Notes: generated by a model not told the origin, from the sequence alone. A stretch of DNA of 64,000 nucleotides from Thermoplasmata archaeon (GCA_023265395.1 JAHFTX010000004.1:1-64000), one strand, 5' to 3'. Positions 48,301-63,976 are shown, counted from the stretch's first letter. Numbers and translations: made by a program.

Positions 48301-49785
48301 ATGGCCGATGGTCTGACGGAAGCGGAACAGGGGACGCCGCTCGAGTCTGAAGCGCCGGCCGTCGCGACCCTCGTGCCGCTGCCCGACATCATCCCAGGGG
48401 ACCTCCCCGACGGTACCGTCCCGATCGAGGCGATGGAGAGCATCCACTGGACTCCCCCTCGCCCGCGCTGGCGCTGGCATCCCTTCTCACCGGGAGGTTA
48501 CATCGGGACCGTCCGGGTCGCACAGGGGTATCGACTCATTGAGTTCGGGTTCCTCTTCGCCCTCATCCTCACCGCCGGCAGCAACGCCCTGCAGGCAGCC
48601 ATCGTCAGCTGGGGACCCTCAGCTGCACCGACCGACGTGGCTGGCCTGGTCGGGTTGCTGCTCAACCGCGTTGGACTGGCACTCGCTCTGATCGGTCTGG
48701 ACCTTTGCGGGTACCTCGATACGCTGGCGATCATCCTCGGCTTCCTGCTGGTCACGCTCGCGGCGGCACAAGCGCCGCGCCGACCCCGGACACTGCTCCT
48801 GAGCGTGGCAGCACTGGCGTTGTTCCTCGTCATCGTCGCGGCGGACCAGATCGGTGCATACGCCGTCCTTGGTGGAGGCCTGGCAGGCGCGTTGGTCCGC
48901 GCCGTGCTCGTGGCGACCCCATTCCTGTTGGTGGCCTCTGCCTACAGCACCAGGCTCGAGCAGTCCCTCGTGACGACCTACGCGGCCACGCTGTTGCTCG
49001 CCCAGTTCGTCGGCTCGCTGCTGCCGCTGCCTGCCCTCCAGGTGGTGCTGGCGAAGTTCCTGGTGGTGTGGGTCGCGCTGGCGGCCGGAGCCATCGGGTT
49101 CCACCTGCTCGCCAATCGCCTCTCGGCATTCGATCCCGCGCCGCCGCTAAAGCAGCGACTCCTCCCGATCGAGGTCCCGACCACGCACTCCGCCCGGATC
49201 GGCCTGCGCGCGCTGCGGCACAGCCGGGGCCATCAGGCCGCGGCTCTGACCGTCGCACTGTTGGTGCTGGTGAGCCTGCCATCGATCGCGGCCGTCGGCG
49301 ACTCCTTGGTCGATCGGCCGACCCATCGCCTCGCCGGCGGGATGGTCCTCACCCCGATCGAGGTCACGACGGTCACGGGCAGCGTCAGCGAGGGAGAGAC
49401 CATCGAGATCCCGGTCGAGGTCACACAGAGCATGGTCGTGGCGCTCAACCTCACCCTGCTCTTTGCCGACGAGCCCGACCAGTCGCGGCACACCAACCAA
49501 CCGGATTCCTTCTCGGTCGAAGCGGCGGTCCCCGGGGGTCCCATCGCCAGTGGCGCGGCGACGAACCCCCACAACGGGGAAGGCAGCATCGCCCTGACCC
49601 TCTACGACGGCGATCAGGTCGACCTAGACGCGGTACCCGTGAGTATCAACGTCACGCTCTCCGACGCCGGCGACCAGACCCCCAGCATCGGACCCAACGT
49701 CCTGGGGCTTCGGACCAACGCCGACCGCTCCAACGATTTCTCCCTCACCCTCTACGTCGTCGCCTTCCAGCCGGCCGATGGATAG
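48301..49785 (+). CDS. Multi-helix membrane protein with C-terminal ectodomain (494 aa)
   Basis: The first ~65 residues are acidic and Pro-rich, then about eight hydrophobic helices run to ~355 (FGFLFALILTAGSNALQAAI; TLLLSVAALALFLVIVAADQ; FLVVWVALAAGAIGFHLLA; ALTVALLVLVSLPSIAAVG). The last ~140 residues are beta-rich and probably outside (MVVALNLTLLFADEPDQSRH; IALTLYDGDQVDLDAVPVSI). No transporter or enzyme family recognised. A TATA box lies 26 bases before the ATG. Its end overlaps the aldo-keto reductase gene by 8 bases. Function unknown. Confidence 0.8.
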   Translation: MADGLTEAEQGTPLESEAPAVATLVPLPDIIPGDLPDGTVPIEAMESIHWTPPRPRWRWHPFSPGGYIGTVRVAQGYRLIEFGFLFALILTAGSNALQAAIVSWGPSAAPTDVAGLVGLLLNRVGLALALIGLDLCGYLDTLAIILGFLLVTLAAAQAPRRPRTLLLSVAALALFLVIVAADQIGAYAVLGGGLAGALVRAVLVATPFLLVASAYSTRLEQSLVTTYAATLLLAQFVGSLLPLPALQVVLAKFLVVWVALAAGAIGFHLLANRLSAFDPAPPLKQRLLPIEVPTTHSARIGLRALRHSRGHQAAALTVALLVLVSLPSIAAVGDSLVDRPTHRLAGGMVLTPIEVTTVTGSVSEGETIEIPVEVTQSMVVALNLTLLFADEPDQSRHTNQPDSFSVEAAVPGGPIASGAATNPHNGEGSIALTLYDGDQVDLDAVPVSINVTLSDAGDQTPSIGPNVLGLRTNADRSNDFSLTLYVVAFQPADG

Positions 49786-51403
49786 CGTGACGCGCAGCCG
49801 CGTCACCGCGGCCTTCTTGAGGGGAAGCCCCGCTGAGGCCTTGGGCGCGCACATGGGACGGATGGGGGGATTCGCGACCGCCGCCGGGACCGCGGGCTTC
49901 GCTGCAGCGCACCCGCTGGGACACCAGCGCGCCCATCTGCGCCTGGGTGGGACAGGTCTGACGGTCAGCGGCGTCGGCTTCGGTTGCTACCGCGTCTCCT
50001 ATCGCAGCCCGTCCCATCATCAGGCCCTGGTGCAAGCGCTGCTGGGCGGTGTCAACCTCATCGACACCTCCACCAACTACACCAACGGCGAGAGTGAGCG
50101 CTTGGTGGGTGAGGTCCTCACCGAACAGATCGGGGGGGGAACGCTTCGCCGCGAGGAGGTCGTCGTCGTCACCAAGGCCGGGTACCTCCAGGGCGAGAAC
50201 TACCAGATCGCCCTGATGCGCGAGTTCCACAGCAACCCCTATCCGGAAGTCGTCAAGATCCAGGACCAGCTGTGGCATTGCATCTCGCCGGAGTTCCTCG
50301 CCGACCAACTGGACCGCTCGCTCAAGCGGTTACAGCTGCGCAGCGTCGACGTGCTGCTGCTGCACAACCCCGAATACTTCCTCAAGGCGGCCCACATGCA
50401 CGGCGCTGCAGACGAGCGCGTGTCCACGGAGTACTACCGCCGCCTGGGCGCGGCCTTCCTGCATCTGGAGGAGGAGGTGAACGAGGGTCGGATCGCCTGG
50501 TATGGCATCAGCTCCAACACCTTCGTCGAGTCGACGCAGGAGCCCGAGTTCACCTCGCTGCAGCGGGTGCTCGAGACCGTCGGGTCGGTGATTGGCAAGG
50601 AGCACCACCTGCAGGTGGTGCAGCTGCCCGCGAACCTCGTCGAACCGGGGGCGGCGCTCGAGCACAATCAGCGGGGTGGCACCATGTCCGCGCTGGAGCT
50701 GGCGGCCGAGGCGGACCTTGGGGTGCTCATCAACCGCCCGCTCAACGGCTACGACGCTCGGAGGCTGCATCGGCTGGCAGACATCCCTGCCACCAAGGAG
50801 GCGCCCCCCCCTGCCGGGGTCGATGCCCAGCTCCAGGCGATCGGGCGCTTCGAGGAATCCTTCCTCGCCCAGCTGCGGACGGAGCTCGGCGCCGAGCACG
50901 AGGCTATCGCCCCCCTGGAGTCCTTCCTGGTCATCGGCTCTCAACTGGGTTCGGCGTGGCGACGGCTGGGGAGCTATGAGAACTGGTGCGAGGTACGCGA
51001 GGGCGCCCTCGAGCCACGGTTGCGTGGGATCGGGCACGTCATGGCGGCAGCCGACGGGGGCGCCGGTGGACCCTTGCGCGTCCAGGCCCAGGACTACGTC
51101 GCGCAGGTGCGAGTGCTCCTGGGGCTCCTCGATGCCCACTACGCCGCCTCGGGCCGCGCGGAGCGACAGGCCTGGCATGACCACCTCGAGCCTGTGCTCC
51201 CCCCTTCGTTGCAGGGACTCTCCCTCAGCCAGAAGGCCATCGTGCTCCTGCGCAGCCTGCCTGCCGACCCGTGCGTGCTCGTGGGCATGCGCCAGCCCGC
51301 ATACGTGCGTGATGTGATCGGCGCGATGGCGTACGAACCTCCTGCGGCGGGCGCAGAGCTGTGGCGAAGGATCGGCGGGGCACCGCCGATGCCAAGGGAG
51401 TGA
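49778..51403 (+). CDS. Aldo/keto-reductase-family protein, extended (541 aa)
   Basis: The AKR barrel is visible from ~55 to ~330: LRLGGTGLTVSGVGFGCYRV, then DTSTNYTNGESERLVGEVL (catalytic Asp and Tyr), VVVVTKAGY (Lys), VDVLLLHNPEYFL (His) and IAWYGISSNTF. Residues ~330-540 form a larger C-terminal part, with VLINRPLNGYDARRLHRLAD in place of the usual closing strands and a helical tail ending in VLVGMRQPAYVRDVIGAMAY, which looks like the family's final helix after a ~150-residue insertion. NAD(P)H use is likely. The 8-base overlap with the upstream membrane protein and 4-base overlap with the next gene imply one operon. Substrate unknown. Confidence 0.8.
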   Translation: MDSVTRSRVTAAFLRGSPAEALGAHMGRMGGFATAAGTAGFAAAHPLGHQRAHLRLGGTGLTVSGVGFGCYRVSYRSPSHHQALVQALLGGVNLIDTSTNYTNGESERLVGEVLTEQIGGGTLRREEVVVVTKAGYLQGENYQIALMREFHSNPYPEVVKIQDQLWHCISPEFLADQLDRSLKRLQLRSVDVLLLHNPEYFLKAAHMHGAADERVSTEYYRRLGAAFLHLEEEVNEGRIAWYGISSNTFVESTQEPEFTSLQRVLETVGSVIGKEHHLQVVQLPANLVEPGAALEHNQRGGTMSALELAAEADLGVLINRPLNGYDARRLHRLADIPATKEAPPPAGVDAQLQAIGRFEESFLAQLRTELGAEHEAIAPLESFLVIGSQLGSAWRRLGSYENWCEVREGALEPRLRGIGHVMAAADGGAGGPLRVQAQDYVAQVRVLLGLLDAHYAASGRAERQAWHDHLEPVLPPSLQGLSLSQKAIVLLRSLPADPCVLVGMRQPAYVRDVIGAMAYEPPAAGAELWRRIGGAPPMPRE

Positions 51404-51635: not shown

Positions 51636-52094
51636 CTATTTTGTCGCCGGCGCACCGTGCGGACGTACGAGCAGTACCGAGGCGGTGCACCGCTGGAGCA
51701 CCGATTCGGCGACCGAGCCGAGGATCATCGGGGCCCAGCCGCGGCGACCGTGGGTCCCCATGACGATCAGGTCACATCCGATCCGTGTGCTGACGCGCTC
51801 GACCTCTTCGGCGATGATGCCATGCACCAGATGAGTGTGTGCGCGCACCCCGCGGGAGCGTGCGGTCCCGGCCGCTTGTTCGAGTACACCGCTCCCGTGC
51901 TCTTCGAGCTTCTCGAGCAGGCTCTTCTGCGCATCCAGGGGCAGCGCCTTGGGGGCTGCCTGCACGATTCGCCGGTCGATGACATGGATCAGGTCGATCT
52001 CGCCGCCGCTGCTGTGGGCATAGTCGATCGCATGGTCGAGCGCGCGCTGCGCGACGTCACTGCCGTCGAGGGGGACGAGCAGGTGGCGGAACAT
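51636..52094 (-). CDS. Universal stress protein (UspA), copy 1
   Basis: 152 residues of the UspA alpha/beta fold: start MFRHLLVPLDGSDVAQRALD, and the nucleotide-binding signature GTHGRRGWAPMILGSVAESV (G-x2-G-x9-G-S intact), so ATP binding is expected. UspA proteins are usually induced by starvation, oxidants or respiratory arrest. Last of five UspA genes on this strand; its ATG lies 4 bases after the next upstream copy's stop. Confidence 0.93.
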   Translation of the reverse strand: MFRHLLVPLDGSDVAQRALDHAIDYAHSSGGEIDLIHVIDRRIVQAAPKALPLDAQKSLLEKLEEHGSGVLEQAAGTARSRGVRAHTHLVHGIIAEEVERVSTRIGCDLIVMGTHGRRGWAPMILGSVAESVLQRCTASVLLVRPHGAPATK

Positions 52095-52098
52095 GCAC

Positions 52099-52575
52099 TC
52101 AGGCCCCTGCCGATGCGGCGGCCCCTTCGCGGACGATGAGCACCATCTCTGGGGCAAGCTGTGCCACGGCGTGCGCGACGCTCCCGAGCAGAACGCGCTG
52201 CAGTCCCGTGCGCCCGTGGCTCCCGATGACGATCAGGTCACACCCCTGCTCCTTGGCGCACGCCAGCAGGCGTTGTGCGATGATCCCCTGCTCGAGATGG
52301 GTGGTGGCGCTGACTTGATGGCGCTTGGGCACGGCCTCCGCCTCGGCCAACAGCGACTCCCCCGCAGCGTGGAGGGTCCGCACGATCTCCTCGACCATCG
52401 GTTGGAGGTGGACCATGCGGGCCGTCTCCAGCGCGCGCTGGTCGATCACATGGACCAGCACGAGCGTGCACCCGGGGTACTGCTTGGCGATGTGGCACGC
52501 GAAGTCGAGAGCCCGAAACGAGCAGTCGCTGCCGTCGAGGGCCACGAGGATCCGCTGGAAGCTCGTCGCTGCCAC
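52099..52575 (-). CDS. Universal stress protein (UspA), copy 2
   Basis: 158 residues: FQRILVALDGSDCSFRALDF, HVIDQRALET and an intact G-x2-G-x9-G-S signature (GSHGRTGLQRVLLGS). GTG 52575 is used because the domain starts five residues later and it follows the previous UspA gene by 11 bases. Part of the UspA array. Confidence 0.92.
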   Translation of the reverse strand: MAATSFQRILVALDGSDCSFRALDFACHIAKQYPGCTLVLVHVIDQRALETARMVHLQPMVEEIVRTLHAAGESLLAEAEAVPKRHQVSATTHLEQGIIAQRLLACAKEQGCDLIVIGSHGRTGLQRVLLGSVAHAVAQLAPEMVLIVREGAAASAGA

Positions 52576-52586
52576 GGTGCCCCACC

Positions 52587-53024
52587 TCAGGGACGTACCA
52601 GCAGGATGGGCACGTCGGTCGTCGCAAGGACGCCTTGGGCGACACTCCCCAGGACGAGGCGGTCCCACCCCGTCCGTCCATGGGTCCCCATCAGGATCAG
52701 GGTCGTCTTGAACTCCTTGACGGAGGCGCCGATCTCGGCAGGGACGTAGCCGTTGCGCAGCTGGGTCGTGACCTTGACGCCCGCATCCTTGAATCGCTTG
52801 GCGGCCGCTGCGAGCACCTGCTCGCCCTCCTCGCGCATCTTGTCGGCGAAGAACGTGTAGTCAGGCTGGACATAGGAGGGCTCCGCCAGTACGTGGATGC
52901 TGTCATCGACGACGAAGACCAGCCGGACTTCGGCCTTGAAGCGCGTGGCGACCTCGATGGCCAAGGTGGTGGCTTTCGCAGCGGGCGGACTCCCATCGAT
53001 CGGGACCAGGATTCGTTCGAGCAT
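52587..53024 (-). CDS. Universal stress protein (UspA), copy 3
   Basis: 145 residues: MLERILVPIDGSPPAAKATT, VVDDSIHVLA and GTHGRTGWDRLVLGSVAQGV (ATP-binding signature intact). A strong Shine-Dalgarno (GGAGGT) lies 6 bases before the ATG. Follows copy 4 by 22 bases. Confidence 0.93.
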   Translation of the reverse strand: MLERILVPIDGSPPAAKATTLAIEVATRFKAEVRLVFVVDDSIHVLAEPSYVQPDYTFFADKMREEGEQVLAAAAKRFKDAGVKVTTQLRNGYVPAEIGASVKEFKTTLILMGTHGRTGWDRLVLGSVAQGVLATTDVPILLVRP

Positions 53025-53046
53025 CGATTGACCTCCGTTCAGACCT

Positions 53047-53478
53047 TCAACGGACCAGGAATACCGGGCACGGCGACTCTGCCAACACACCTTGGGCGAC
53101 GCTCCCCAGCAGCACGCCGGCCGCACCTGTGCGGTTATGGGTCCCCATGACGATCAGGTCGGCGCTGAACTCCTTTGCAGCGGTACAAATCTCGTGGGCG
53201 ACGACCCCCTCGGTGCCAAAGACGGAGACCGGGACGTCCCAGCGGGTGCAGCGCTCCTTGCCAGCCTCCAGCACCTCGCGGCCGCTGGCGCTCAACTGCT
53301 CGATGATCTTCGGCTCGGTAGGCGCCATAAGGCGGCGCACCGTCGCCGTGGTACGGTGGTCGACGACGTGCACCAGGCGGATCTTGCCCCGCGTGGTGCG
53401 GGCGATCGTCAGGGCATAGTCGAGGGCCTTGTCAGAGAGTTCACCGCCATCGAGGGCGACGACGATATGGTCGAACAT
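53047..53478 (-). CDS. Universal stress protein (UspA), copy 4, altered signature
   Basis: 143 residues: MFDHIVVALDGGELSDKALD and HVVDHRTTATVRRLM. The signature reads GTHNRTGAAGVLLGSVAQGV: the second Gly of G-x2-G is Asn, so ATP affinity may be reduced. GGAGGAG precedes the ATG by 3-4 bases. Lies 8 bases after the tandem UspA gene. Confidence 0.9.
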   Translation of the reverse strand: MFDHIVVALDGGELSDKALDYALTIARTTRGKIRLVHVVDHRTTATVRRLMAPTEPKIIEQLSASGREVLEAGKERCTRWDVPVSVFGTEGVVAHEICTAAKEFSADLIVMGTHNRTGAAGVLLGSVAQGVLAESPCPVFLVR

Positions 53479-53486
53479 CTCTCCTC

Positions 53487-54353
53487 CTACGCCGCCTCCC
53501 AGAGCGGTTCGCGCATCGGCACGACGATGACGGGTGCGGGGGAGTTGCCCACCACGTGGGCGCTGACGCTGCCCAACAACGCGCGGGCCAGGCGGCCGCG
53601 CCCGTGGGAGCCCATGACGATGACGTCGGAGCGCTCGACGAGCACGGCCTTGAGCACCTCGCGACCCGGGGGGTCTCCCACCAGCAGACGGGTGGCGGGC
53701 CGCACGATGCCCGAGGCCGCCATGGTGGCAGCGGCCTTCTCGATGAAGGCCTGGGGGAGCAGAGCCTTCTCCGGCGCGACGCACATCAGGGTGACGGTCG
53801 CGTTGCGTGTGCGACCGAGTGCTTGGGCCGTTCCCATGAGCGCTTGGGGGACCGCGCCCTCCTGCAAGGGCACGAGCACGCGCAGCCCCTCGGGGGACGC
53901 TTGGGAGAGCCGGTAGGGGGTGACCCCGACCTTGGCGGTCTGGGTCAGCAGCGCGATAGGGCTGTTGCGTAGGAGGTAATCGGCCATCGAACCGAACGCG
54001 TTGGCGCGGTAGCCGGTCTTCCCGTGGGTGCCGATGGCCAGCAGGTCACCGCCCGCTCGCTCTGCAGCAGCGAGGATCCCATCGGGGTAGCGGTCGATGA
54101 TCGCCTTGACCTCGACCTTGACGCCGTGGCCCTTGGCCATGCGCGTGACGGCGCTCAAGGCCGTCTCCGCCTCCTTGTGGAGCGCCGAGTACTGCGCCTC
54201 CTTGGTCTCGTCGATGAGGGTGAATGCGTGAAGCGTCGCCCCCAGGGACTTGGCCAGCATGGCCGCTTGCTCGGCGGCGAGGAGCGCGTGTTCGGAGCCG
54301 TCGACGGCGACGACGATCGAATCGAGGTCCAGTGTCGAGATCGCTTTGCCCAT
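53487..54353 (-). CDS. Tandem UspA protein (two domains)
   Basis: 288 residues, two UspA domains in series. Domain 1 (about 1-145): SIVVAVDGSEHALLAAEQAA, signature GTHGKTGYRANAFGSMADYL. Domain 2 (150-288): LRVLVPLQEGAVPQALMGTA, signature GSHGRGRLARALLGSVSAHV. Both ATP loops are intact. Start 54353 is preferred over 54359 because AGGAGGGG then lies 8 bases, not 2 bases, upstream. First UspA gene after the CBS protein; likely the same operon. Confidence 0.92.
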   Translation of the reverse strand: MGKAISTLDLDSIVVAVDGSEHALLAAEQAAMLAKSLGATLHAFTLIDETKEAQYSALHKEAETALSAVTRMAKGHGVKVEVKAIIDRYPDGILAAAERAGGDLLAIGTHGKTGYRANAFGSMADYLLRNSPIALLTQTAKVGVTPYRLSQASPEGLRVLVPLQEGAVPQALMGTAQALGRTRNATVTLMCVAPEKALLPQAFIEKAAATMAASGIVRPATRLLVGDPPGREVLKAVLVERSDVIVMGSHGRGRLARALLGSVSAHVVGNSPAPVIVVPMREPLWEAA

Positions 54354-54379
54354 GGTCATCCCCTCCTGATGTCGTGCAC

Positions 54380-54934
54380 CTAGCTCTCCCACGCGCAGTC
54401 GCTACAGAGCAGTCCGCCGTAGCGGAACAACAGAGCCTCTGATGCCTTGCCGCACTTGTCACAGACCCCTTCCTCGCTCTCGTCGGCCATCTGGTGCTCG
54501 GTGCCCGATGTCGTGGCGGAGAGGACTTCCTCAGGAGCCTTGCCGGTCAGATCGCGGAGGCTGATGATCCCGACGAGCTTGCCCTGCTCGGCGACCGGGA
54601 GGTGACGGATCCCCAAGTGGTCCATGCGCTCGAGGGCCTGGCGCAAGTCCATATCGGGCGTCGCGCAGAAGATCGGACTGCTCATGAACCGGCGCACCGG
54701 CACGGCCGAGGGCCGTTCGTCGAGCAACAGGAACCGCTGGGTGACGTCGCGTTCGGTCACAATCCCGACTGGGTGGCCACCACGCACGACCACGAGGGAG
54801 GCGATGCTGTGGTCCCGGAAGATCTCCGCCGCCCGGTACGCGCTGGTATCCTCCTCGATGGTCACGACCTTCCGCTGCATCGTCTCACGGACGGTCGTCG
54901 GTTCCTTCTCTGGATTCTTGTGCGCTTTGGCCAT
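54380..54934 (-). CDS. CBS-domain pair protein with C-terminal zinc ribbon
   Basis: 184 residues. Two CBS motifs (Bateman module) at ~15-70 (VVTIEEDTSAYRAAEIFRDH; GIVTERDVTQRFL) and ~80-135 (CATPDMDLRQALERMDHLGI; GIISLRDLTG) bind adenine nucleotides such as AMP, ATP or AdoMet. A zinc ribbon follows (CDKCGK, 15 residues later CSDC) that probably docks to a partner or nucleic acid. Start ATG 54934 follows GAGGGG by ~6 bases. Located between the response regulator and the UspA array on the same strand; a nucleotide-level sensor is inferred. Confidence 0.88.
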   Translation of the reverse strand: MAKAHKNPEKEPTTVRETMQRKVVTIEEDTSAYRAAEIFRDHSIASLVVVRGGHPVGIVTERDVTQRFLLLDERPSAVPVRRFMSSPIFCATPDMDLRQALERMDHLGIRHLPVAEQGKLVGIISLRDLTGKAPEEVLSATTSGTEHQMADESEEGVCDKCGKASEALLFRYGGLLCSDCAWES

Positions 54935-54944
54935 GGTGGTCCCC

Positions 54945-55328
54945 TCAGTTCGATGTGGCTGCCAATACTGCCCCGATCCGGCGCACCAACTCCGCGGGGT
55001 CGAAGGGTTTGGTCAGGTAGTCCTGCACCCCGATCACTCGAATCCCCATCTGCTGGTCGATGCTCGAGGTCTTGGCGGTGAGCATGACGATCGGGATCTC
55101 CTTGGTTCGTCGGTGCTCGCGCAGCTGTCGGCAGACCACCCAACCATCCATCTCGGGCATCATGATGTCGAGGATGATGAGGTCCGGCTGGTCCTTGCGG
55201 GCGACGCGCAGCCCCTCCTCACCGTGGGTGGCGGTCAGGACGCGGTACTTCTCGGCCTTGAGCACCGTGGCGATCATGGCCAGGAGCTCCGGTTCGTCGT
55301 CGATGACCAGGATCGTCTTCTGCGCCAT
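54945..55328 (-). CDS. CheY-like response-regulator receiver
   Basis: 127 residues, a stand-alone receiver: acidic pocket in ILVIDDEPELL, phospho-acceptor Asp in ILDIMMPEMDGW, Thr in VMLTAKTS and Lys in YLTKPFDP. No output domain. ATG 55328 is used (GGAG 5 bases before). Probable target of the histidine kinase at 56548, with the winged-helix protein between them as a candidate partner. Confidence 0.93.
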   Translation of the reverse strand: MAQKTILVIDDEPELLAMIATVLKAEKYRVLTATHGEEGLRVARKDQPDLIILDIMMPEMDGWVVCRQLREHRRTKEIPIVMLTAKTSSIDQQMGIRVIGVQDYLTKPFDPAELVRRIGAVLAATSN

Positions 55329-55362
55329 GACGTCTCCACCCCGCAGGCCATCACTCCGTCCA

Positions 55363-56475
55363 TCAAGCTTGTGCACTCGAGCGAGGCTTGCCGCGCGCAT
55401 CGGTGCGCACCGGAGTGGGCACGGAGAGCGCTTCGGTCAAGTCGCCGTACTCGTGGTTCTTGGGAGTGACGAGGTCGCGCAGGGAGAAGATCGCCCGGTC
55501 GGGAGGGCGTGCGAAGATCTCGTTGATCGTGTAGGCCTCGGTGAAATGGGCATAGGCGGCCTTGTAGCGGGCGAAGTCCTCGAAGGCATTGATGAAGAGG
55601 AGCTCGTTCTTGCCATAGGCCGCGAAGATCGGTGGACCGATGGTGCGGACCAACTCCGGGACGTAGGACTTCAGTCCTTCACTCAGGGTATGGTTGAACC
55701 AGCCATGGGTGACCAGCAGGACTTCGAAGCCGAGGTACTCGAGGTTGGGGATGGTGCGCAGGGCGAAGAGACGCTCGCGCGCGAGGCGCTTCTTCGTCCG
55801 ACCGATCGTCATGCGGGAGGCAGGGATGCGGGTGCTCAGCTCCAGGTCGTGGCACGCCGGGTAGCGCACCAATCCACCCAGGACCTCCTGGTCCTTGTCG
55901 CTAAGCGCTGCTGGGGGGCCAGGTTCGAACGGGAGGGGGTCCGTACGGACATCGAGAGGTTGGTCGGGCCAGAAGGTGTGCTGGAGCAGGTTGGCGTAGT
56001 CGAAGTAGATGGGGACGCTGCTGAGGGAGAACGGGAACTGGATCATGCTGATGGGCGCTTCGAGGTAGCCGATCGATTTGAGCGCACCTTCGAGGTCTTC
56101 GGTGTTGCGTCGGACCGTGGTCAGGTCCGCGCCGATCTGCAAGAAGAGGTCCTGGTTGGCTTCGCTGATGCCGAAGACGAACTCGGGGCGGCGGAGCACC
56201 GAGCTGACCAGACGGACCTTCTGCTCCAGCGGGGGATGGGCCGAGAAGGTCAGCAGCGATGCCGAGAGCAACTCGCAGCCGAGGCGGTTGAACGCCGGGA
56301 CGCGGACGGTCTTGAAATACCCCCCTCGGGCAAGCTTGAGACGGATGGAGGTGACGGTGGGCACCTTGAGGCGTACCTGGGCGCTCAGCTGTTTGTCCGT
56401 CGAGCCAGGGTAGCGCACCAGACCGTAGAGGACCCGCCGCTCCGTCTCGAGCAAGGCCTTGCGTGCGGCGGTCAC
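55363..56475 (-). CDS. Transcription regulator with duplicated winged-helix/Lrp-like units
   Basis: 370 residues in two homologous halves. Each starts with a winged helix-turn-helix (ERRVLYGLVRYPGSTDKQLS / DQEVLGGLVRYPACHDLELS, then VTSIRLKLARGGYF / MTIGRTKKRLARERLF) followed by a ~100-residue alpha/beta sensing unit (FNRLGCELLSASLLTFSAHP / LEYLGFEVLLVTHGWFNHTL). The pattern is that of archaeal Lrp/AsnC-like regulators. Predicted to bind DNA as a pseudo-dimer. GTG 56475 is ~33 bases from an AT-rich TATA-like stretch (GAATAAGG). It lies between the kinase and the receiver on the same strand. Confidence 0.85.
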   Translation of the reverse strand: MTAARKALLETERRVLYGLVRYPGSTDKQLSAQVRLKVPTVTSIRLKLARGGYFKTVRVPAFNRLGCELLSASLLTFSAHPPLEQKVRLVSSVLRRPEFVFGISEANQDLFLQIGADLTTVRRNTEDLEGALKSIGYLEAPISMIQFPFSLSSVPIYFDYANLLQHTFWPDQPLDVRTDPLPFEPGPPAALSDKDQEVLGGLVRYPACHDLELSTRIPASRMTIGRTKKRLARERLFALRTIPNLEYLGFEVLLVTHGWFNHTLSEGLKSYVPELVRTIGPPIFAAYGKNELLFINAFEDFARYKAAYAHFTEAYTINEIFARPPDRAIFSLRDLVTPKNHEYGDLTEALSVPTPVRTDARGKPRSSAQA

Positions 56476-56547
56476 AGGCCGAGAGAATACGAGCGCTTCC
56501 TTATTCTTTTCCTAAAAACTGAATGTATCTGTTGATTCAAGACTGTA

Positions 56548-57933
56548 TTAATGAGCAGATACTTCCGACGGCTCGGATGCCGGCGGGCCATCGACGGGGA
56601 GCACCAGCGAGAAAAGCGCACCGGCGCCCGAGCCCAAGGGCTCGAACCGGTTACGGTCAGGATGGGGGATGGGCGAGGTCAGGGACAACTCGCCGCCATG
56701 GAGGTGGGCCAGCTCGGCGCAGATCGCAAGACCAAGGCCCGGGCTCGAGGCCGTCAATCGCTCGGCCTCCGGGGTGCGATAGAACCGCCGGAACACCAGC
56801 TCCTGGTACTCCGCAGGGACGCCTGGCCCACCATCGGCCACCTCGAGCACATAGGCCTCGCCGACGCCCTGAGGCAGCTCGTCTGGGCGTGCCCGACGCA
56901 AGCCCACGACGACCCTCTGACTGCCGCTGCCATACTTGATGGCATTCTCGATCAGGTTCCCGAGCAGGTCCAGAAGCCGCTCGCGATCCGCGCGGACCTG
57001 TTGGTTCTCCAACCCCTCCTCGATGAGGGCACCCAGGGTGACGCCCTGTTGCTGGGCGCGCAGCTGCGCGCTGTCCATGAGGTCGCGGATGACTGCTGCC
57101 AGCTCGACCCCGCTCAGGCGCAGCAGCAGCTGGTCCTGGTCGATCGTCGAGATGAGCAGCAGGCGCTCGAGCAGGCTATGGAGCCGCTCCCCCTGCTGCA
57201 CGCAGATCCGCAGGTAGCGCTCGATGTCCGGAGGAATCTCCCCCGCCTTGCCCGATTCGATGAAACGGAGGTATCCGAGGATGGTAGTCAACGGCGTGCG
57301 CAGCTCGTGAGAGATGTTGCTGATGAAGCGGTTCTTGAGGGCGTCCTGCGCGGCGAGCGCCTCCAATCGCTGGCGCATCCGCACGGTGTCGGTGGGTTCC
57401 TCGCCCAGGTCGACGATGCCCCCGATCGTCTGGCCCAGCCAGCGCAGGTAGTCTCCGCCCACGACGGGTCGGACTTCGTCGATGCGGAAGATCAGGTACG
57501 AGGAGGCATCCGCCCAGAAGGGGTCGAAGACGTCCCCGTGCTCCTCTCGAAGCTGGTAGAGCGCTGCCAGCTCCTGGTAGCGCGGGGAACCGAGGAAGCA
57601 CTGTTCCATCAGCGTGCAATGGAGACGCAGTCCGCGCAGGAAGTAGGTCTCGCGTTCCGGCTCGACGACCAGGAGGGCCATCTGCTTGGTCTGCAGGATG
57701 TTGCGGAAGGAGCGCTGCAGGAAGACGTGGGCCATGACGATGTGTTCGGGGTCGAGCACCATGCAGGTCCCCACGAACGCGACGTTGGGCGATCCGTCGG
57801 TGGTACTGGTGGCAATCACCTTGACGGTCTTCTCGGAGCGCAGGAACTCGTGGATCTGCTCATGGCCCAGCGGTGGGACCAGCTGGGCGAGCGCTCGCTG
57901 GTTCTCCGAGAGTTCCAGCAAAGGTGCTCGCAT
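56548..57933 (-). CDS. Histidine kinase with PNPOx-like split-barrel sensor
   Basis: 461 residues. The N-terminal ~30-160 match the pyridoxamine-phosphate-oxidase-like FMN-binding split barrel (VKVIATSTTDGSPNVAFVGT, NILQTKQMALLVVEPERETY, GLRLHCTLMEQ), used by flavin, heme or F420 proteins; no membrane helix is present. The kinase core follows: H-box FISNISHELRTPLTTILGYL with His209, N-box LIENAIKYGSG (~327), G1 VADGGPGVP and G2 SSPGLGLAICAE. ATG 57933 is 27 bases from a TATA box (leaderless); ATG 57939 is possible. A soluble redox or flavin/heme-sensing kinase is inferred; fusion of PPOX to a histidine kinase is unusual. Confidence 0.85.
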   Translation of the reverse strand: MRAPLLELSENQRALAQLVPPLGHEQIHEFLRSEKTVKVIATSTTDGSPNVAFVGTCMVLDPEHIVMAHVFLQRSFRNILQTKQMALLVVEPERETYFLRGLRLHCTLMEQCFLGSPRYQELAALYQLREEHGDVFDPFWADASSYLIFRIDEVRPVVGGDYLRWLGQTIGGIVDLGEEPTDTVRMRQRLEALAAQDALKNRFISNISHELRTPLTTILGYLRFIESGKAGEIPPDIERYLRICVQQGERLHSLLERLLLISTIDQDQLLLRLSGVELAAVIRDLMDSAQLRAQQQGVTLGALIEEGLENQQVRADRERLLDLLGNLIENAIKYGSGSQRVVVGLRRARPDELPQGVGEAYVLEVADGGPGVPAEYQELVFRRFYRTPEAERLTASSPGLGLAICAELAHLHGGELSLTSPIPHPDRNRFEPLGSGAGALFSLVLPVDGPPASEPSEVSAH

Positions 57934-57954
57934 CCCCATCAAAGTAGATGCAGG

Positions 57955-57966
57955 ACCTAATAGGAC
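57955..57966 (-). promoter_or_regulatory. TATA box of the PPOX histidine kinase
   Basis: GTCCTATTAGGT on the minus strand, centred 27 bases before ATG 57933; leaderless spacing that favours this start. Confidence 0.5.
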
Positions 57967-58131
57967 TGTGGCCATTCACCTGAGAACGTGCATAGGCTAC
58001 CCTGGAAGGATGAGCAAATGCATGAACTCCCCTGGAGGGGCGAGGGGGGTGCCTCTCGAGGGCACGGGCCGAGGCGCGCAGACCACTGACCTTAAGACCC
58101 CAGGGCGACCGAGCGGAGGAACCGGTGTCCC

Positions 58132-58485
58132 ATGGACGAGCCACTGCCGTCGCCGATCTCTGAGCCATTCATCCAACGACACCGCGCGATCCTCAAGGCA
58201 ATCACCTGGCGTGCCATCGGTGCGACCACCACCTTTGGGTTCTCGATGGCTGCGGCGATGTACCTCGTCAACGACCTGAAGGCGGCGCTGGGGATCAGCA
58301 CCACCGTGACCATCATCGAATCGGCTGGGAAGGTCCTGATGTACTACTTCCACGAGCGGGCGTGGGACGCCAAGGTCCCCTTGCCCCGGCGCACGGGAGC
58401 GACCGCCGCGACGACGGATGCCGCGGTCGGGACACGTGCGCGCGTCCCCTTGCTCGCGCGGCTGGCCCGCGATGGGCTGGACTAG
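58132..58485 (+). CDS. DUF2061 small membrane protein
   Basis: 117 residues with the DUF2061 pattern: ILKAITWRAIGATTTFGFSM, then VTIIESAGKVLMYYFHERAW. Two predicted helices and a conserved HERAW end; function not known in any organism. The C-terminal ~30 residues are Ala/Thr/Arg-rich. Shares 4 bases with convergent osmC. A TATA-like CCTTAAGAC lies ~42 bases upstream. Confidence 0.85.
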   Translation: MDEPLPSPISEPFIQRHRAILKAITWRAIGATTTFGFSMAAAMYLVNDLKAALGISTTVTIIESAGKVLMYYFHERAWDAKVPLPRRTGATAATTDAAVGTRARVPLLARLARDGLD

Positions 58486-58916
58486 TCCGCCGGCTCGATG
58501 TGCAGCTCGTGGGTGATGGTCGCCCCTGCGGCGCGGAAGGTCGCCAGTGCAGGGCAGTACTTGGTCATCGACAACTCGATCGCACGGTCCGCGGCCTCGC
58601 GCTCGACAGCGCCGCGTAGCGTGTAGATGACGTGGATGGCCAGGTAGCGGCGCGGGTACTCCTCGGCCTTGGTCCCGCGCACCTCGACGGTCAGCCCCTT
58701 GAGCGGTTGGCGCTTCTTGCCCAGCACCATGACCACATCCATGCAGGTGCACGCTGCCGTCGCGGCGAGGAAGATCTGGTAGGGCTGGTGTCCCTGCTGG
58801 ACCCGACCGTCGTTGTCGGTATCGAAGACGATCGCCCGCGTGTTGTTGTCCGTCCCCACGAAGGTCTGGTCGTGGGACCATCGGGCGCTCCCTCGGTGGA
58901 TGACCGGCTCGGCCAT
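58482..58916 (-). CDS. OsmC/Ohr-family peroxide-reducing protein
   Basis: 144 residues. Peroxidatic Cys lies in AATAACTCMDVVMVLGKKRQ (Cys56/58) and the second in MTKYCPALATF (Cys121), with VQQGHQPYQIFLAATAACT as the typical substrate-side strand. OsmC/Ohr proteins reduce organic hydroperoxides with thiols; this branch has the YeeD/OsmC-like CTCMD motif. Convergent with DUF2061. It could protect against the same stress sensed by the adjoining kinase locus (inference). Confidence 0.9.
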   Translation of the reverse strand: MAEPVIHRGSARWSHDQTFVGTDNNTRAIVFDTDNDGRVQQGHQPYQIFLAATAACTCMDVVMVLGKKRQPLKGLTVEVRGTKAEEYPRRYLAIHVIYTLRGAVEREAADRAIELSMTKYCPALATFRAAGATITHELHIEPAD

Positions 58917-58978: not shown

Positions 58979-61900
58979 TCAGCCCAATTGGTCGAGCAGG
59001 GCGTCAAGGTCGTCCTCGTCGGTCGTGTCCTTGGGAGTGCTCGGCGCCGCCTTCTTGTCCTCAAGCAGGGCACTGATGTCCTCGAGGGAGGACTCCCTGC
59101 TCGATTCTGCGGGTGCCCCATCCGTCGGCGGCATCGGACCGACCTCCTCTTCCTCGACGTCGATCGGGAAGGCCTCACCGAAGCTGGGGGCTGGCACGCT
59201 CTGCGGGAGCACCTCGCCATCCTCGGGCGCGGCCACCGGTTGGGGGGTCGCTTCCTCCCAGCGGCTCTTGGGCGCTGCTTGCCCAGTCGAGGGAGCGGTG
59301 GTAGCCGTTCCACCTGCGGCCCCAAGGTCGAGCCCTCCGCGGAACGTCGGCTCCTCGTCGAGTGCATCGGCGAGATCGTGAGCGGTCCGTGCGGTCGGCT
59401 CGGTCTGCTCGGCGTCGTCATCGGCCTCGCCGGGCGGCAGCGGCGGGGTGATCGCAGGCTCTTCGCCGGGGAGCGGCCCGAGCTGAGAGCGTTGGCGCCG
59501 CCGCATGAGCACGATGGCGACGACGATTCCGCCCACCAGCAGTGCGAACAGGAGCCAGTTGGTGGACAGGATCGTGGTCACTTGCTCGATGGGGGAGGGT
59601 CCTGGAGGAGGCACGACGGCCTTGGCGGTCGTGAAGGTGAAGAGCTTCTCGCCCCCCACGATCGCTAGGCCCTGCGCCGATTCGGCACTCGGACCTAGGC
59701 GCACCGTGTAGTGCGTGCCGTCCTCGAGTGGGGTGCTGGGGGTGAGGGTGACGTTGCGACCCGTCCAGGAGAACGTACCGGTGATCGCCGGTACGAAAGT
59801 CAGTGCCGACTCGACGCTGCTCTGGTCCATCAGGGTCGAGAACCGCAGCACGATGGTGGTGTTGACCGGGACGTCGGTCGCCCTGTCGGCAGGGGTGGTC
59901 GACCGCAGCTCCGGTGGTACCACCGGCTCGGGGATCAGCACCGTGATGTTGGCGGCCGCGTGCGAGTGCACCAACGTCCCGTTGGCGTCGACGTAGGTGG
60001 AGTCGAGGGCTAGCGGGTAGGTGCCGTTGCCCAAGGTGACCCCCACGACCACCTTGACCGTCAGTGGGAAGGTCCCGATGGAGACCGTCGTGAGGTTCCA
60101 GTGTCCTGGTGCATCGGCGTAGGAGGCCGAAGGGTCGCGAAGGCTCAACCGGCCGTCGTACCGGAGGTTGAAGTCCGCCCACGGCAGAGGACGATTCCCA
60201 GCATTGGTGATGCGAATCGTCGCCGTGACCAGCGAGTTGGGGCGCACCGGTTGGGCCGACAACGAGAGCGAGGAATCCATGAGGATGATGGGGGGAGCCA
60301 GGAGACGGACGCTCACCGGCAGGGCGATCGCCAGCGGCCGGGGAAGCCCGGTCGCACCCACATAGCTGACGTTGCCGCCCACGGTGACGTTCCCGCTCTG
60401 CGGTGCAGAATCCACCAAACGCAAGGTCAACCGCAGCAGATGGCTGGTCGATGGCGGGAGCTTCAGGGCAGCGTAGTGCCAACCCCGGGCACCCTCCGGG
60501 CAGGGGATGCCGCACAGGGGTGGCGAGAGGTTTCCTTCGTCAGTGTCATCGAGGACCTCCAGCAACGGATCGATGGCGAGCACCAGGTCTGCCTCGACGG
60601 CGTCGCCACCGCCATTGTTGGTGATGTTGACGTCGACGACCATCACCTGACCGGCGTAGAGCTCGGTCCGCGTCGTCTCCAACACAAGGGACAACGCCGG
60701 CTCGGGCCCACCCAGGAGCTGCGCGCTGACATCGCTGGAGGTGCCATTGGCGACCTCCTCGAGGACGAGGTTGGTGTAGCGATAGGAGACGTTGGTGACG
60801 AGCGTCGCGACCTCGTCGAGCGCGGGGTCGACCGTACCGGTGATGGTGAGGTTGCCCCCGGTACCGGCGTCGATGATGCCCAGCCGGAACTCGTTTCCCA
60901 CCTTGGCGGCTTCGTCGGAGGAGGTGGTGTAGGTCCACAGGTCGGTGTCGAACAGATGCGTCAGGGTCAGGGAGCCGGCGTCACCTTCCCCGATGTTGAG
61001 GTAATCGATGCGCAGCGTCAACTGCTCTCCGGGCAGCGCCGCGGGCCGGTCGAGACTGACCGCGACGACGACCTGCGGGGGCACCAGAGGGATGACCAGC
61101 ACCTGCCAGGTGTTGCCCTCGACCAACGGGAGCAGGACCCCTGAGGGGCTGGTGTAGGTGGCGTTGGGCTGGGTCGTGAGGTTGGTACCCTCGGGCGTCG
61201 AAGCAGAGATCAGTCCCGTGACGGTGAGGTTGTGGGAGCCGGGTTGGACATCGAAGATGGTGAAGGTGTCCCCGATACGTGCAGTGGGCTCGGAGGTGGC
61301 GATGAACTGCATCCCTGCTGGCAGGGTGAACTGCAGGTCCATCCGTGCGGCGGCTGACAACCCGGTGTTGTTGTAGTAGACCGTATAGAGCACTTGCTCG
61401 CCACGGGAGGCGTTGGTACGGTCGGCGACCTGCCCCAGCTCGAGGGCGGGGATGTGCTCCCACGAGAGGTGCACCTCCTCGACGAACCGCGTGTCGCGGA
61501 TGCGGCCGGATTCGTGGGTGATGGCGATCTGGTACTGCAGGAATCGGGCTGAAGGGGAGTCGACGACGGCGCCCGAGGAGGTGATCCACGGTTCCCAGGG
61601 AGCGTCCGCCAAGGAGAGGGCGTCGTCGGCGCTGCGGGTGCGCATGCGCACATCGGTGAAGGGGCCGTTCCCGGCGGTCTCGGTCCACCCCAGCGTCAAC
61701 CAGGCGACGGTCTCGCCCGCGTCGATGGGCGGGGAGGTCCAACTGCCCCCGGTGGTCAGCATCAGCGCCTCGCCGACGCCGTTGCCCGTGCCCGCACCAG
61801 AGATCGTGTAGGCGTCGTCGCAGGGGCCCAGCAGCAGGGTCCCCAAGCCACCGAAGGGACGGTTCCGCTGGGTGATCGCCCCCGTCGATTCGGTCAGCTG

Positions 61901-63976
61901 CACCAGTTCGCCGAACCCGGCCGTGCCGAACCAGTCGTTGCCCAGGCCGCCGGAGGAACCCGCCAGCAGGGTCTGCTCGCCGTTGAAGGCCACACCGACA
62001 CCGATGAACTGGTCGGTGACCGGGTCGAAGCGGCCGATCAGCGCCGAGTTGCCGTTGGTCGCCTGTGTGCTGACGTAGACGCGACCGTCGGCGCCGAGGT
62101 CAAGGTCGGTCACGTGGTTGGTGTTGACCAGGACGCCGCCCTGGTCGGTGAGGAGGCCGTTGGAGAGGTCGAGCGTCGCCAGGTGCAGCACGGACGCCGA
62201 CCCCAGAAGGACCCGGCCATCGGGCAGCAGTGCAGCGCTGTCCCACGAGTCGACGCCCGCGACCTGCGCGGCAACGTCGTGCCAGGTGACGAGCTCGGTG
62301 AGCGGGTCGATGGAGAAGATCCGGCCCCCTACCTGGTCGTTGGCGCCGATCGTCGCTCCCCAGACCGTCCCTGCGGGGTCGACGAAGAGCACGCCGATGC
62401 GCGCGCCCGCGAGCAGCGGACCGCCGCCGATGGTCGAGAGCACCGTGCCGTTGTAGGGGTCGATCCGCAGCACGCTGCCATCACTCGGACCGCCTGAGCC
62501 TACCCAGACCTCGCCCGGCTCGGTTGCGACGATGGTCACCAGCTGCTGGGCCGGCAGGGGGGAGGCTCCTCCGTTGTAGAGGCTGATCCCGTGGGTGTCG
62601 GTGTCGAGCAGGTAGAGCCGGTCGCTGACGGCAAAGCCGGGGGCGGCGATCCCCACGACGGTATGACCGTCGGGCAGCAAGGCCTGCGGGCCCACCGGTC
62701 CTAGCCCTCCGGGAAGTCCGCGGAACCAGCTATAGGGCTTGAGGCGGACCAGATGCCCGTCGTTGGCGCCCCCGCTGGTACCGACCCACAGTGTACCGTC
62801 CGGCGAGGAGACCAGCGCGGTGACCGCGAGCTGGCCGCCGATGACCAGGTCGAGGTTCTCGGCGCGACGACTGACCGGGTCGTAGCGCAGGAGCAGGCCC
62901 CCGTCATCGGTGCCGAAGTAGATCATGCCATCGTCGCTCAGCAGCGAGGCCCAGGTCGCCTTGGTGTTCCCAAAGAACATGTCGAACAACGGGGTGCTCG
63001 GCGCGACGGCGGGATTGACCACGAAGCCGGACGTCACCCCGGCAGCGCCATCCTCGTCCGTCATGCCCCAGAGGAATCCCAGGTCATCGAAGACCAGCGC
63101 TTGGGCGAAACGGTCGCCGTTGTTGACGACGCGGGTCTGGTAGCCGGTGTTATTGCCTGGACCCACGCGCACGACGTAGGCCTCGTTGGCGCCGTTGGTC
63201 GAGCCGACCCAGATGTCCCCGTCGGGTCCGGTGACCACCGACCGGACCGGTCGGCCAAAGCCCAGGACGCCACCGAGATTGCCCAGGTTGGTCGCCACCA
63301 GCGTCGCCGCATCGACGCGGATGAGGCTCCCGCTGTTGGAGCCCGCCCACAGGGTGTCATCCTGGCCGACGCAGATCGACCAGATGCGCTGGGTCGTCAG
63401 CGAAGCCCCGCCGTTGGCCTCGATGACCGTGTCGCTGGTCGGGTCGTAGACGAAGGCGTAGGCCGGTTGGTCGTTGACCGTGACGCTATCGGTGGCGACC
63501 CCCCAGACCGTCCCGTTGGCGGCAAGGGCCAGCGCCGTGATGTGGTCCTCGCCGGCGATGGCGGCGAGACCACCGTTGAGCAGCGAGAAGGTCAGCGTCT
63601 GGGGGTCGAAGGAGAACAGGCGGCCACTCTCGTAGGTGCCACCCACCAAGGTGCCGTTGGCGAGCCTCACCAAGCCACCGATGGTGTTGTCTCCGAGGAT
63701 CGGTGGACCGAGGTCGAGGATGTTGTCGAGGCCGACCGCACCGTCGGCGATCGCCAGCGGCTGGAGGTTGACGCTGGTGCCCGTCGCGAAGTCGGCGGCG
63801 GTGCTGACGTTGTACCAGTCCATCGCGCGGCTCGAGGGCGTCGCCATCGGCTGGGAGCGGACTGCAGCGTGCGTCGGCAGGGACGGCGAAGAGGGGACCA
63901 GGAGCACCTGCGCGCCCGCCAGTGGGCTGAGCAGCAGGGGCAACAGTATCGAGAGGGTGATGACGGTGTGGCGCAT
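58979..63976 (-). CDS. Giant surface protein: beta-propeller, DUF11/CARDB and Big-like domains, long acidic tail (1665 aa)
   Basis: Signal peptide VITLSILLPLLLSPLAGAQ. Residues ~50-690 form repeated propeller blades (PDGDIWVGSTNGANEAYVVR; PDGTLWVGTSGGANDGHLVR, roughly 12 copies of ~50 residues) like ligand-binding two-component sensor propellers. Then DUF11/CARDB-like sandwiches (QVLYTVYYNNTGLSAAARMD; VDVNITNNGGGDAVEADLVL), and a Big_5-like domain (STTPADRATDVPVNTTIVLR). A helix (LLFALLVGGIVVAIVLM) at ~1468-1490 leads to a 174-residue acidic cytoplasmic tail ending DDLDALLDQLG. The ATG is 24 bases from the window end, so upstream context is not visible. A receptor linking outside binding to an inner partner is inferred. 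Confidence 0.85.
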   Translation of the reverse strand: MRHTVITLSILLPLLLSPLAGAQVLLVPSSPSLPTHAAVRSQPMATPSSRAMDWYNVSTAADFATGTSVNLQPLAIADGAVGLDNILDLGPPILGDNTIGGLVRLANGTLVGGTYESGRLFSFDPQTLTFSLLNGGLAAIAGEDHITALALAANGTVWGVATDSVTVNDQPAYAFVYDPTSDTVIEANGGASLTTQRIWSICVGQDDTLWAGSNSGSLIRVDAATLVATNLGNLGGVLGFGRPVRSVVTGPDGDIWVGSTNGANEAYVVRVGPGNNTGYQTRVVNNGDRFAQALVFDDLGFLWGMTDEDGAAGVTSGFVVNPAVAPSTPLFDMFFGNTKATWASLLSDDGMIYFGTDDGGLLLRYDPVSRRAENLDLVIGGQLAVTALVSSPDGTLWVGTSGGANDGHLVRLKPYSWFRGLPGGLGPVGPQALLPDGHTVVGIAAPGFAVSDRLYLLDTDTHGISLYNGGASPLPAQQLVTIVATEPGEVWVGSGGPSDGSVLRIDPYNGTVLSTIGGGPLLAGARIGVLFVDPAGTVWGATIGANDQVGGRIFSIDPLTELVTWHDVAAQVAGVDSWDSAALLPDGRVLLGSASVLHLATLDLSNGLLTDQGGVLVNTNHVTDLDLGADGRVYVSTQATNGNSALIGRFDPVTDQFIGVGVAFNGEQTLLAGSSGGLGNDWFGTAGFGELVQLTESTGAITQRNRPFGGLGTLLLGPCDDAYTISGAGTGNGVGEALMLTTGGSWTSPPIDAGETVAWLTLGWTETAGNGPFTDVRMRTRSADDALSLADAPWEPWITSSGAVVDSPSARFLQYQIAITHESGRIRDTRFVEEVHLSWEHIPALELGQVADRTNASRGEQVLYTVYYNNTGLSAAARMDLQFTLPAGMQFIATSEPTARIGDTFTIFDVQPGSHNLTVTGLISASTPEGTNLTTQPNATYTSPSGVLLPLVEGNTWQVLVIPLVPPQVVVAVSLDRPAALPGEQLTLRIDYLNIGEGDAGSLTLTHLFDTDLWTYTTSSDEAAKVGNEFRLGIIDAGTGGNLTITGTVDPALDEVATLVTNVSYRYTNLVLEEVANGTSSDVSAQLLGGPEPALSLVLETTRTELYAGQVMVVDVNITNNGGGDAVEADLVLAIDPLLEVLDDTDEGNLSPPLCGIPCPEGARGWHYAALKLPPSTSHLLRLTLRLVDSAPQSGNVTVGGNVSYVGATGLPRPLAIALPVSVRLLAPPIILMDSSLSLSAQPVRPNSLVTATIRITNAGNRPLPWADFNLRYDGRLSLRDPSASYADAPGHWNLTTVSIGTFPLTVKVVVGVTLGNGTYPLALDSTYVDANGTLVHSHAAANITVLIPEPVVPPELRSTTPADRATDVPVNTTIVLRFSTLMDQSSVESALTFVPAITGTFSWTGRNVTLTPSTPLEDGTHYTVRLGPSAESAQGLAIVGGEKLFTFTTAKAVVPPPGPSPIEQVTTILSTNWLLFALLVGGIVVAIVLMRRRQRSQLGPLPGEEPAITPPLPPGEADDDAEQTEPTARTAHDLADALDEEPTFRGGLDLGAAGGTATTAPSTGQAAPKSRWEEATPQPVAAPEDGEVLPQSVPAPSFGEAFPIDVEEEEVGPMPPTDGAPAESSRESSLEDISALLEDKKAAPSTPKDTTDEDDLDALLDQLG

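Follow-up and report, generated by a model that had tools for sequence, protein, structure and literature searches.

A probable redox- or energy-responsive Usp/CBS operon beside a PPOX-sensor histidine kinase in a Thermoplasmata archaeon

In Mycobacterium tuberculosis the DosR dormancy regulon places Usps under a redox/hypoxia two-component system, in which the sensors DosS/T are GAF-heme proteins and DosR is a REC-HTH fusion. This regulon, of which Usp is a part (PMC11841059), would be a parallel of the archaeal locus described here in the way it works. Among the members of the Nmp oxygen regulon of Myxococcus xanthus are Usp and CBS genes as well as a kinase system (PMC11841059), and NmpRSTU resembles the archaeal locus both in this combination and in having a CBS gene within the regulator's own operon (PMC11841059). 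In NmpRSTU the sensor is a protoglobin, the relay has several components and the DNA-binding response regulator is NtrC-like, whereas the archaeal locus has a PPOX sensor, a REC-only protein and a separate Lrp-like regulator. The low-oxygen locus lxa of Burkholderia cenocepacia holds 6 of the 11 Usps of its genome (PMC9733578), a concentration matched here by 6 of 11 Usp domains. However, lxa is a 50-gene bacterial locus that includes metabolic genes (PMC6127331), and the term CBS is absent from the two lxa papers searched (PMC6127331, PMC9733578). Among archaea, the FilI/FilR1/FilR2 system of Methanosaeta harundinacea likewise combines a kinase with FilR2, a REC that stands alone, and with a partner that binds DNA (PMC3991700), but FilR1 carries REC and its DNA-binding domain in one chain, whereas in the present locus each resides in a protein of its own, the regulator being Lrp-like. 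Archaeal redox kinases paired with REC-less regulators are represented by MsmS and RdmS of Methanosarcina acetivorans (PMC6944256), whose PAS/GAF sensors are without a phosphorylatable His, in contrast to the PPOX sensor, intact H-box and REC protein in a neighbouring operon found here. In gene content the archaeal locus agrees with low-oxygen and dormancy loci in grouping multiple Usps with a CBS protein beside a two-component system, and by analogy its function may resemble that of the bacterial low-oxygen loci Nmp and lxa.

The locus lies in a 64-kb window, the whole stretch of DNA analyzed, which comprises bases 1–64000 of the 117-kb contig C57 in a genome of 2.78 Mb that is 89% complete. 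The sampled genomes included one of this order, five of its class and 293 of its phylum. Contamination of the assembly is judged unlikely because the wHTH family of the regulator occurs in 5/5 class genomes, the GC content matches that of other contigs and the euryarchaeal DNA polymerase DP2 family is present, which among the control genomes was found in three euryarchaea only. Gene calling and Pfam place nine genes on the minus strand, in the transcription order PPOX-HisKA-HATPase kinase, duplicated wHTH protein (wHTHd), REC, 2xCBS-zinc ribbon, usp5, usp4, usp3, usp2 and usp1. The single-strand arrangement proposed in the earlier note thus stands, as do its protein identities (Usp in five proteins, 2xCBS, Response_reg, and HisKA, HATPase_c and PNPOx_N in the kinase); its start at 51636 is also correct, but the kinase gene ends at 57975 instead of 57966. 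Spacing mostly below 40 bases holds from wHTHd onward, where the gaps in transcript order are 34, 10, 20–26, 8, 22, 11 and 4 nt, but not between kinase and wHTHd, where the gap is 72 nt. The six UspA domains announced for five genes were found, two of them being Usp stretches in the 288-aa usp5 (53487–54353; 1.8e-40), both with the ATP motif. The single-domain proteins are encoded by usp4 (53047–53478; 4.3e-34), usp3 (52587–53024; 4.2e-28), usp2 (52099–52575; 2.2e-34) and usp1 (51636–52094; 4.6e-34). All five proteins match Usp (PF00582), and the motif G-2x-G-9x-G(S/T) is exact in 5/6 domains, with a GTHN variant in usp4, in keeping with the family. The packing of more than half of the genome's Usp domains into 2.7 kb is surprising, the other four class genomes having 1–5 Usp domains each; the same-strand order by itself is not.

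The 72-nt gap between kinase and wHTHd (56476–56547, minus strand) contains the 60-bp stretch with the highest AT content of the whole window (0.68 versus a mean of 0.33) and likely holds the end of the kinase unit and the wHTHd promoter. Shine-Dalgarno pairing is strong for REC, usp5, usp4, usp3 and usp2 (ΔG −9.7 to −12.1) and moderate for the CBS gene and usp1 (ΔG −6.5), and wHTHd has no Shine-Dalgarno site (ΔG −1.7 versus a background mean of −3.8). A leaderless first gene followed by Shine-Dalgarno-led genes is a known archaeal pattern, and the start of wHTHd appears to carry this leaderless signature. On the basis of the AT-rich gap and the Shine-Dalgarno pattern, the locus probably forms two transcription units, an eight-gene operon from wHTHd to usp1 and a separate kinase unit, although read-through from the kinase unit into the operon is possible. 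The gap contains no match to the archaeal TATA-like consensus with up to one mismatch, and a sigma-70 and terminator scan gave no signal above chance. A perfect inverted repeat, AGAATA-N12-TATTCT, lies upstream of wHTHd at 56484–56507 but did not hold up as a regulatory site, since 21% of shuffles contain one equally long and the genome-wide operator search returned only the repeat itself as a perfect match, all other sites carrying two mismatches. The OsmC gene (58482–58916, minus strand), which had been drawn into one complete cassette with the locus, falls outside the unit because a DUF2061 gene on the plus strand (58132–58485) separates it from the kinase; with the kinase itself apparently transcribed separately, the single-cassette proposal is not sustained.

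The kinase (56548–57975, minus strand; 475 aa), one of six HisKA kinases in the genome, matches PNPOx_N (1.4e-7), HisKA (1e-16) and HATPase_c (3.4e-18), the phosphoacceptor His and HATPase domains of a histidine kinase both being above cut-off. The H-box SHELRTPL at residue 222 and the DGGPGVP and GLGLAI motifs are intact. No transmembrane-like segment is present (peak 19-residue hydropathy 1.25), indicating from the sequence that the protein is soluble. The PPOX sensor spans approximately residues 39–172. By sequence, its matches in the PDB are HutZ (E 5e-4) and a flavin-binding protein of COG3576, and its model (pLDDT 69) matches HutZ, an FMN-binding protein and F420 reductase, in agreement with the suggestion of a candidate redox sensor kinase with a predicted split barrel of the FMN, heme or F420 type. 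The predicted PPOX fold is the sole basis of the redox assignment, and Usps answer many stresses. A PPOX sensor fused to a kinase was not found in any other genome searched; in the 293 phylum genomes the PPOX matches lie in short frames, never of kinase length, and the PPOX domain alone as query against the genome contigs gave no match. With an alignment query, the best 80 PPOX relatives in the genome contigs were all bacterial, a search biased to the PPOX-GAF family because three of the four query rows were PPOX-GAF proteins. No kinase domain was detected by phmmer in these 80 relatives, and nearly all have a tail of ~270–380 residues after PPOX, with GAF where scanned. The bacterial PPOX-GAF proteins share with the kinase an N-terminal PPOX domain homologous along its length (20–30% identity) but continue into GAF and a C-terminal part with no domain assigned, whereas the archaeal chain continues into HisKA-HATPase and so lacks the PPOX-plus-GAF arrangement. 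With these as its relatives in sequence, PPOX is already used beside a signaling-type domain, and in the present locus it becomes a candidate for the redox-sensing part of a histidine kinase. The bacterial family (L093–L172, for example L093:5947–7299) is mostly from Pseudomonadota, and this C-terminal part is ~100 aa long.

The wHTHd protein (55363–56475, minus strand; 370 aa, GTG start) has no Pfam or NCBIfam assignment. The duplicated wHTH noted earlier is confirmed by an internal repeat score of 93 (29 ± 5 for shuffles) and by the AF2 model (pLDDT 79.7), in which two copies of a wHTH followed by a ferredoxin-like (RAM/ACT-like) domain are predicted. This predicted order of domains is that of Lrp/AsnC regulators, although the protein is a 370-aa tandem duplication rather than a ~150-aa single-unit chain recognized by profiles. 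The Foldseek search returned many Lrp/AsnC regulators, with TM values (target) mostly about 0.6–0.67. The gene is followed by the REC-only response regulator (54945–55328, minus strand; 127 aa; Response_reg 5.2e-30), one of the genome's ten receivers and a single gene away from the kinase, with the phosphoacceptor Asp in place and the DDE, LDIMMP, MLTAK and TKPF motifs all intact. With the residues for phosphotransfer present in both proteins (SHELRTPL in the kinase; LDIMMP, DDE and K in REC) and the genes lying close together, transfer from the kinase to REC is plausible. The clear output route suggested in the earlier note was not borne out, as REC is without an output domain and wHTHd without a receiver; a route from kinase through REC to the regulator would therefore need protein contact, the usual way in which stand-alone REC proteins act in archaea (PMC5847659). 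Stand-alone receivers make up ~40% of archaeal response regulators, most of them without an inferable target (PMC5847659), whereas the operon of this REC contains just one candidate regulator and a defined group of candidate targets, and a kinase gene lies one gene off. Its output route could therefore be tested with few purified proteins. Elsewhere in the genome, on contig C75 (L081), a kinase lies beside a REC-DUF835-HTH protein, in which the receiver is fused to a DNA-binding-type domain, and a second stand-alone REC at C11:57418–58185 (L082) adjoins REC-CheB and is probably a chemotaxis CheY.

We favor an eight-gene operon with its own promoter, downstream of a separately transcribed PPOX kinase and tied to it by a signaling circuit, and give this reading as a whole an even chance of being correct. 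In the proposed circuit, the PPOX split barrel would read the state of a redox cofactor or ligand, with FMN, F420 and heme as candidates, and the kinase would phosphorylate the neighboring REC protein. Phosphorylated REC may then, through protein contact, make the duplicated Lrp-like regulator more or less active, and this regulator would control its own operon. With the operon autoregulated by wHTHd, the nucleotide-binding Usp and CBS proteins would therefore accumulate once the redox or energy state drops. The more specific proposal of an archaeal hypoxia/redox switch, running from the PPOX kinase through the stand-alone receiver to the tandem Lrp-like regulator, is doubtful; if true, it would be a two-component system whose output passes to a feast/famine-type regulator.

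Lrp/AsnC regulators are classically ligand-driven, and the operon could be a one-component system in which a metabolite is sensed by the RAM-like domains of the Lrp-like regulator, which alone controls the CBS and Usp genes, the kinase and REC being neighbors with another output. The likely promoter that sets the kinase apart is in line with such an arrangement, as are the surroundings of the class homologues of wHTHd: in the loci examined, genes for Usp, CBS, REC or a kinase are missing near them, save one Usp gene ~12 kb away on a contig of genome G001. The position of REC inside the tight operon, 34 nt past wHTHd and 10 nt ahead of the CBS gene, and its retained phosphorylation residues argue against it, and we consider the one-component operon possible, although somewhat unlikely.

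The neighborhood check proposed in the earlier note went against the kinase, receiver and wHTH part of the locus. The full gene set is absent around the wHTH homologues in the class (five genomes), and no REC, kinase or wHTHd gene occurs at 40 wider Usp/CBS loci sampled in the phylum. The kinase-REC-wHTH link is thus without conservation support, since no relative keeps the set together, but the refutation is weak because this is the sole sampled genome of its order. The association of CBS with Usp fared better and recurs across the phylum, in approximately seven families, as the only recurring part of the set. Usp and CBS genes are neighbors at 11/29 CBS loci, all in family f16, and at 14/29 Usp loci (families f30, f9, f38, f37 and f18), counts that are not independent because the loci were chosen as best matches and are phylogenetically clustered; a 2xCBS-Usp-Usp row occurs in genome G032 (family f23). 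These pairs resemble the locus in placing Usp beside CBS, with the same CBS-zinc-ribbon family in one genome family, but they contain fewer Usp genes and no REC, kinase or wHTHd. In family f16 (L174, L180, L182, L184, L185, L188, L192, L195, L196, L199 and L200) another CBS gene comes after the CBS-zinc-ribbon gene, and a Usp gene in divergent orientation lies some 0.5–1 kb off. In several other families (L204, L206, L207, L210, L212, L215, L216, L223, L227, L228, L230 and L231) a Usp gene is followed directly, within a few bases or with overlap, by a CBS protein of ~280–300 aa (L255, the example scanned, has four CBS stretches), and a CBS protein of ~400 aa often lies further along, past this pair. 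The CBS protein of the locus (54380–54934, minus strand; 184 aa; CBS 2.9e-29), with its CxxC...CxxC zinc ribbon, has homologues in many phylum genomes over residues 10–181 (26–39% identity), and its four Cys are invariant in 9 aligned members, by which it is a member of a phylum-wide family. The locus may link the Usp-CBS pairing of the phylum to the bacterial low-oxygen loci. It is probably a lineage-specific Usp/CBS operon that responds to redox or energy state, and what is new is that in one sampled genome Usp-CBS has been captured by three further parts: the PPOX kinase, the REC-only protein and the tandem Lrp-like regulator.

Alternatively, the genes may have accreted without a circuit, as a lineage-specific and partly bacterial Usp expansion that came to lie beside regulatory genes unrelated to it, in this genome alone, which is the only one with the full set. 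In the tree, usp1–4 and a tandem Usp gene on contig C8 group with two Usps from Burkholderiales plasmids (support 75; wider group 36) rather than with the Usps of the phylum, and the nearest PPOX relatives found are bacterial as well, both of which fit this account. It is countered by the operon-grade spacing and Shine-Dalgarno sites, by a wHTH family that is native to the class and by the CBS-Usp pairing, whose recurrence in the phylum indicates that this part at least is not random; we regard accretion without a circuit as unlikely. The C8 gene (C8:21396–22310, L052) is a 382-aa tandem frame in which the N-terminal domain pairs with usp3 (94) and the C-terminal domain with usp2 (50), which suggests a fused and relocated copy of the usp3-usp2 neighbor pair.

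The active site of NirDL is located in its RAM-like domains. That wHTHd is a NirDL-like heme-pathway enzyme, with the locus serving heme or redox cofactor supply, is highly improbable even though the best Foldseek match is the fused siroheme decarboxylase NirDL (4ch7; 1.7e-6): relative to the class homologues HTH1 is 48% and HTH2 31% identical, whereas the RAM-like domains, which should be conserved in such an enzyme, are the least so (18–19%), each half taken singly resembles many DNA-binding regulators of the Lrp/AsnC type, and no Pfam or NCBIfam profile assigns the protein to this enzyme family. The conservation of the HTHs rather than of the RAM-like domains argues for a regulator of the DNA-binding type. 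Its best matches in the class genomes are 24–29% identical, and a scan of viral contigs gave no relative. In the flanks of the locus, the window encodes at 58979–63976 (minus strand) a 1665-aa protein with propeller-like repeats, DUF11, Big_5 and a C-terminal hydrophobic segment, which is probably surface-anchored, and at 49778–51403 (plus strand) a 541-aa protein in which residues 79–255 form an aldo/keto reductase domain and the other parts carry no domain assignment.
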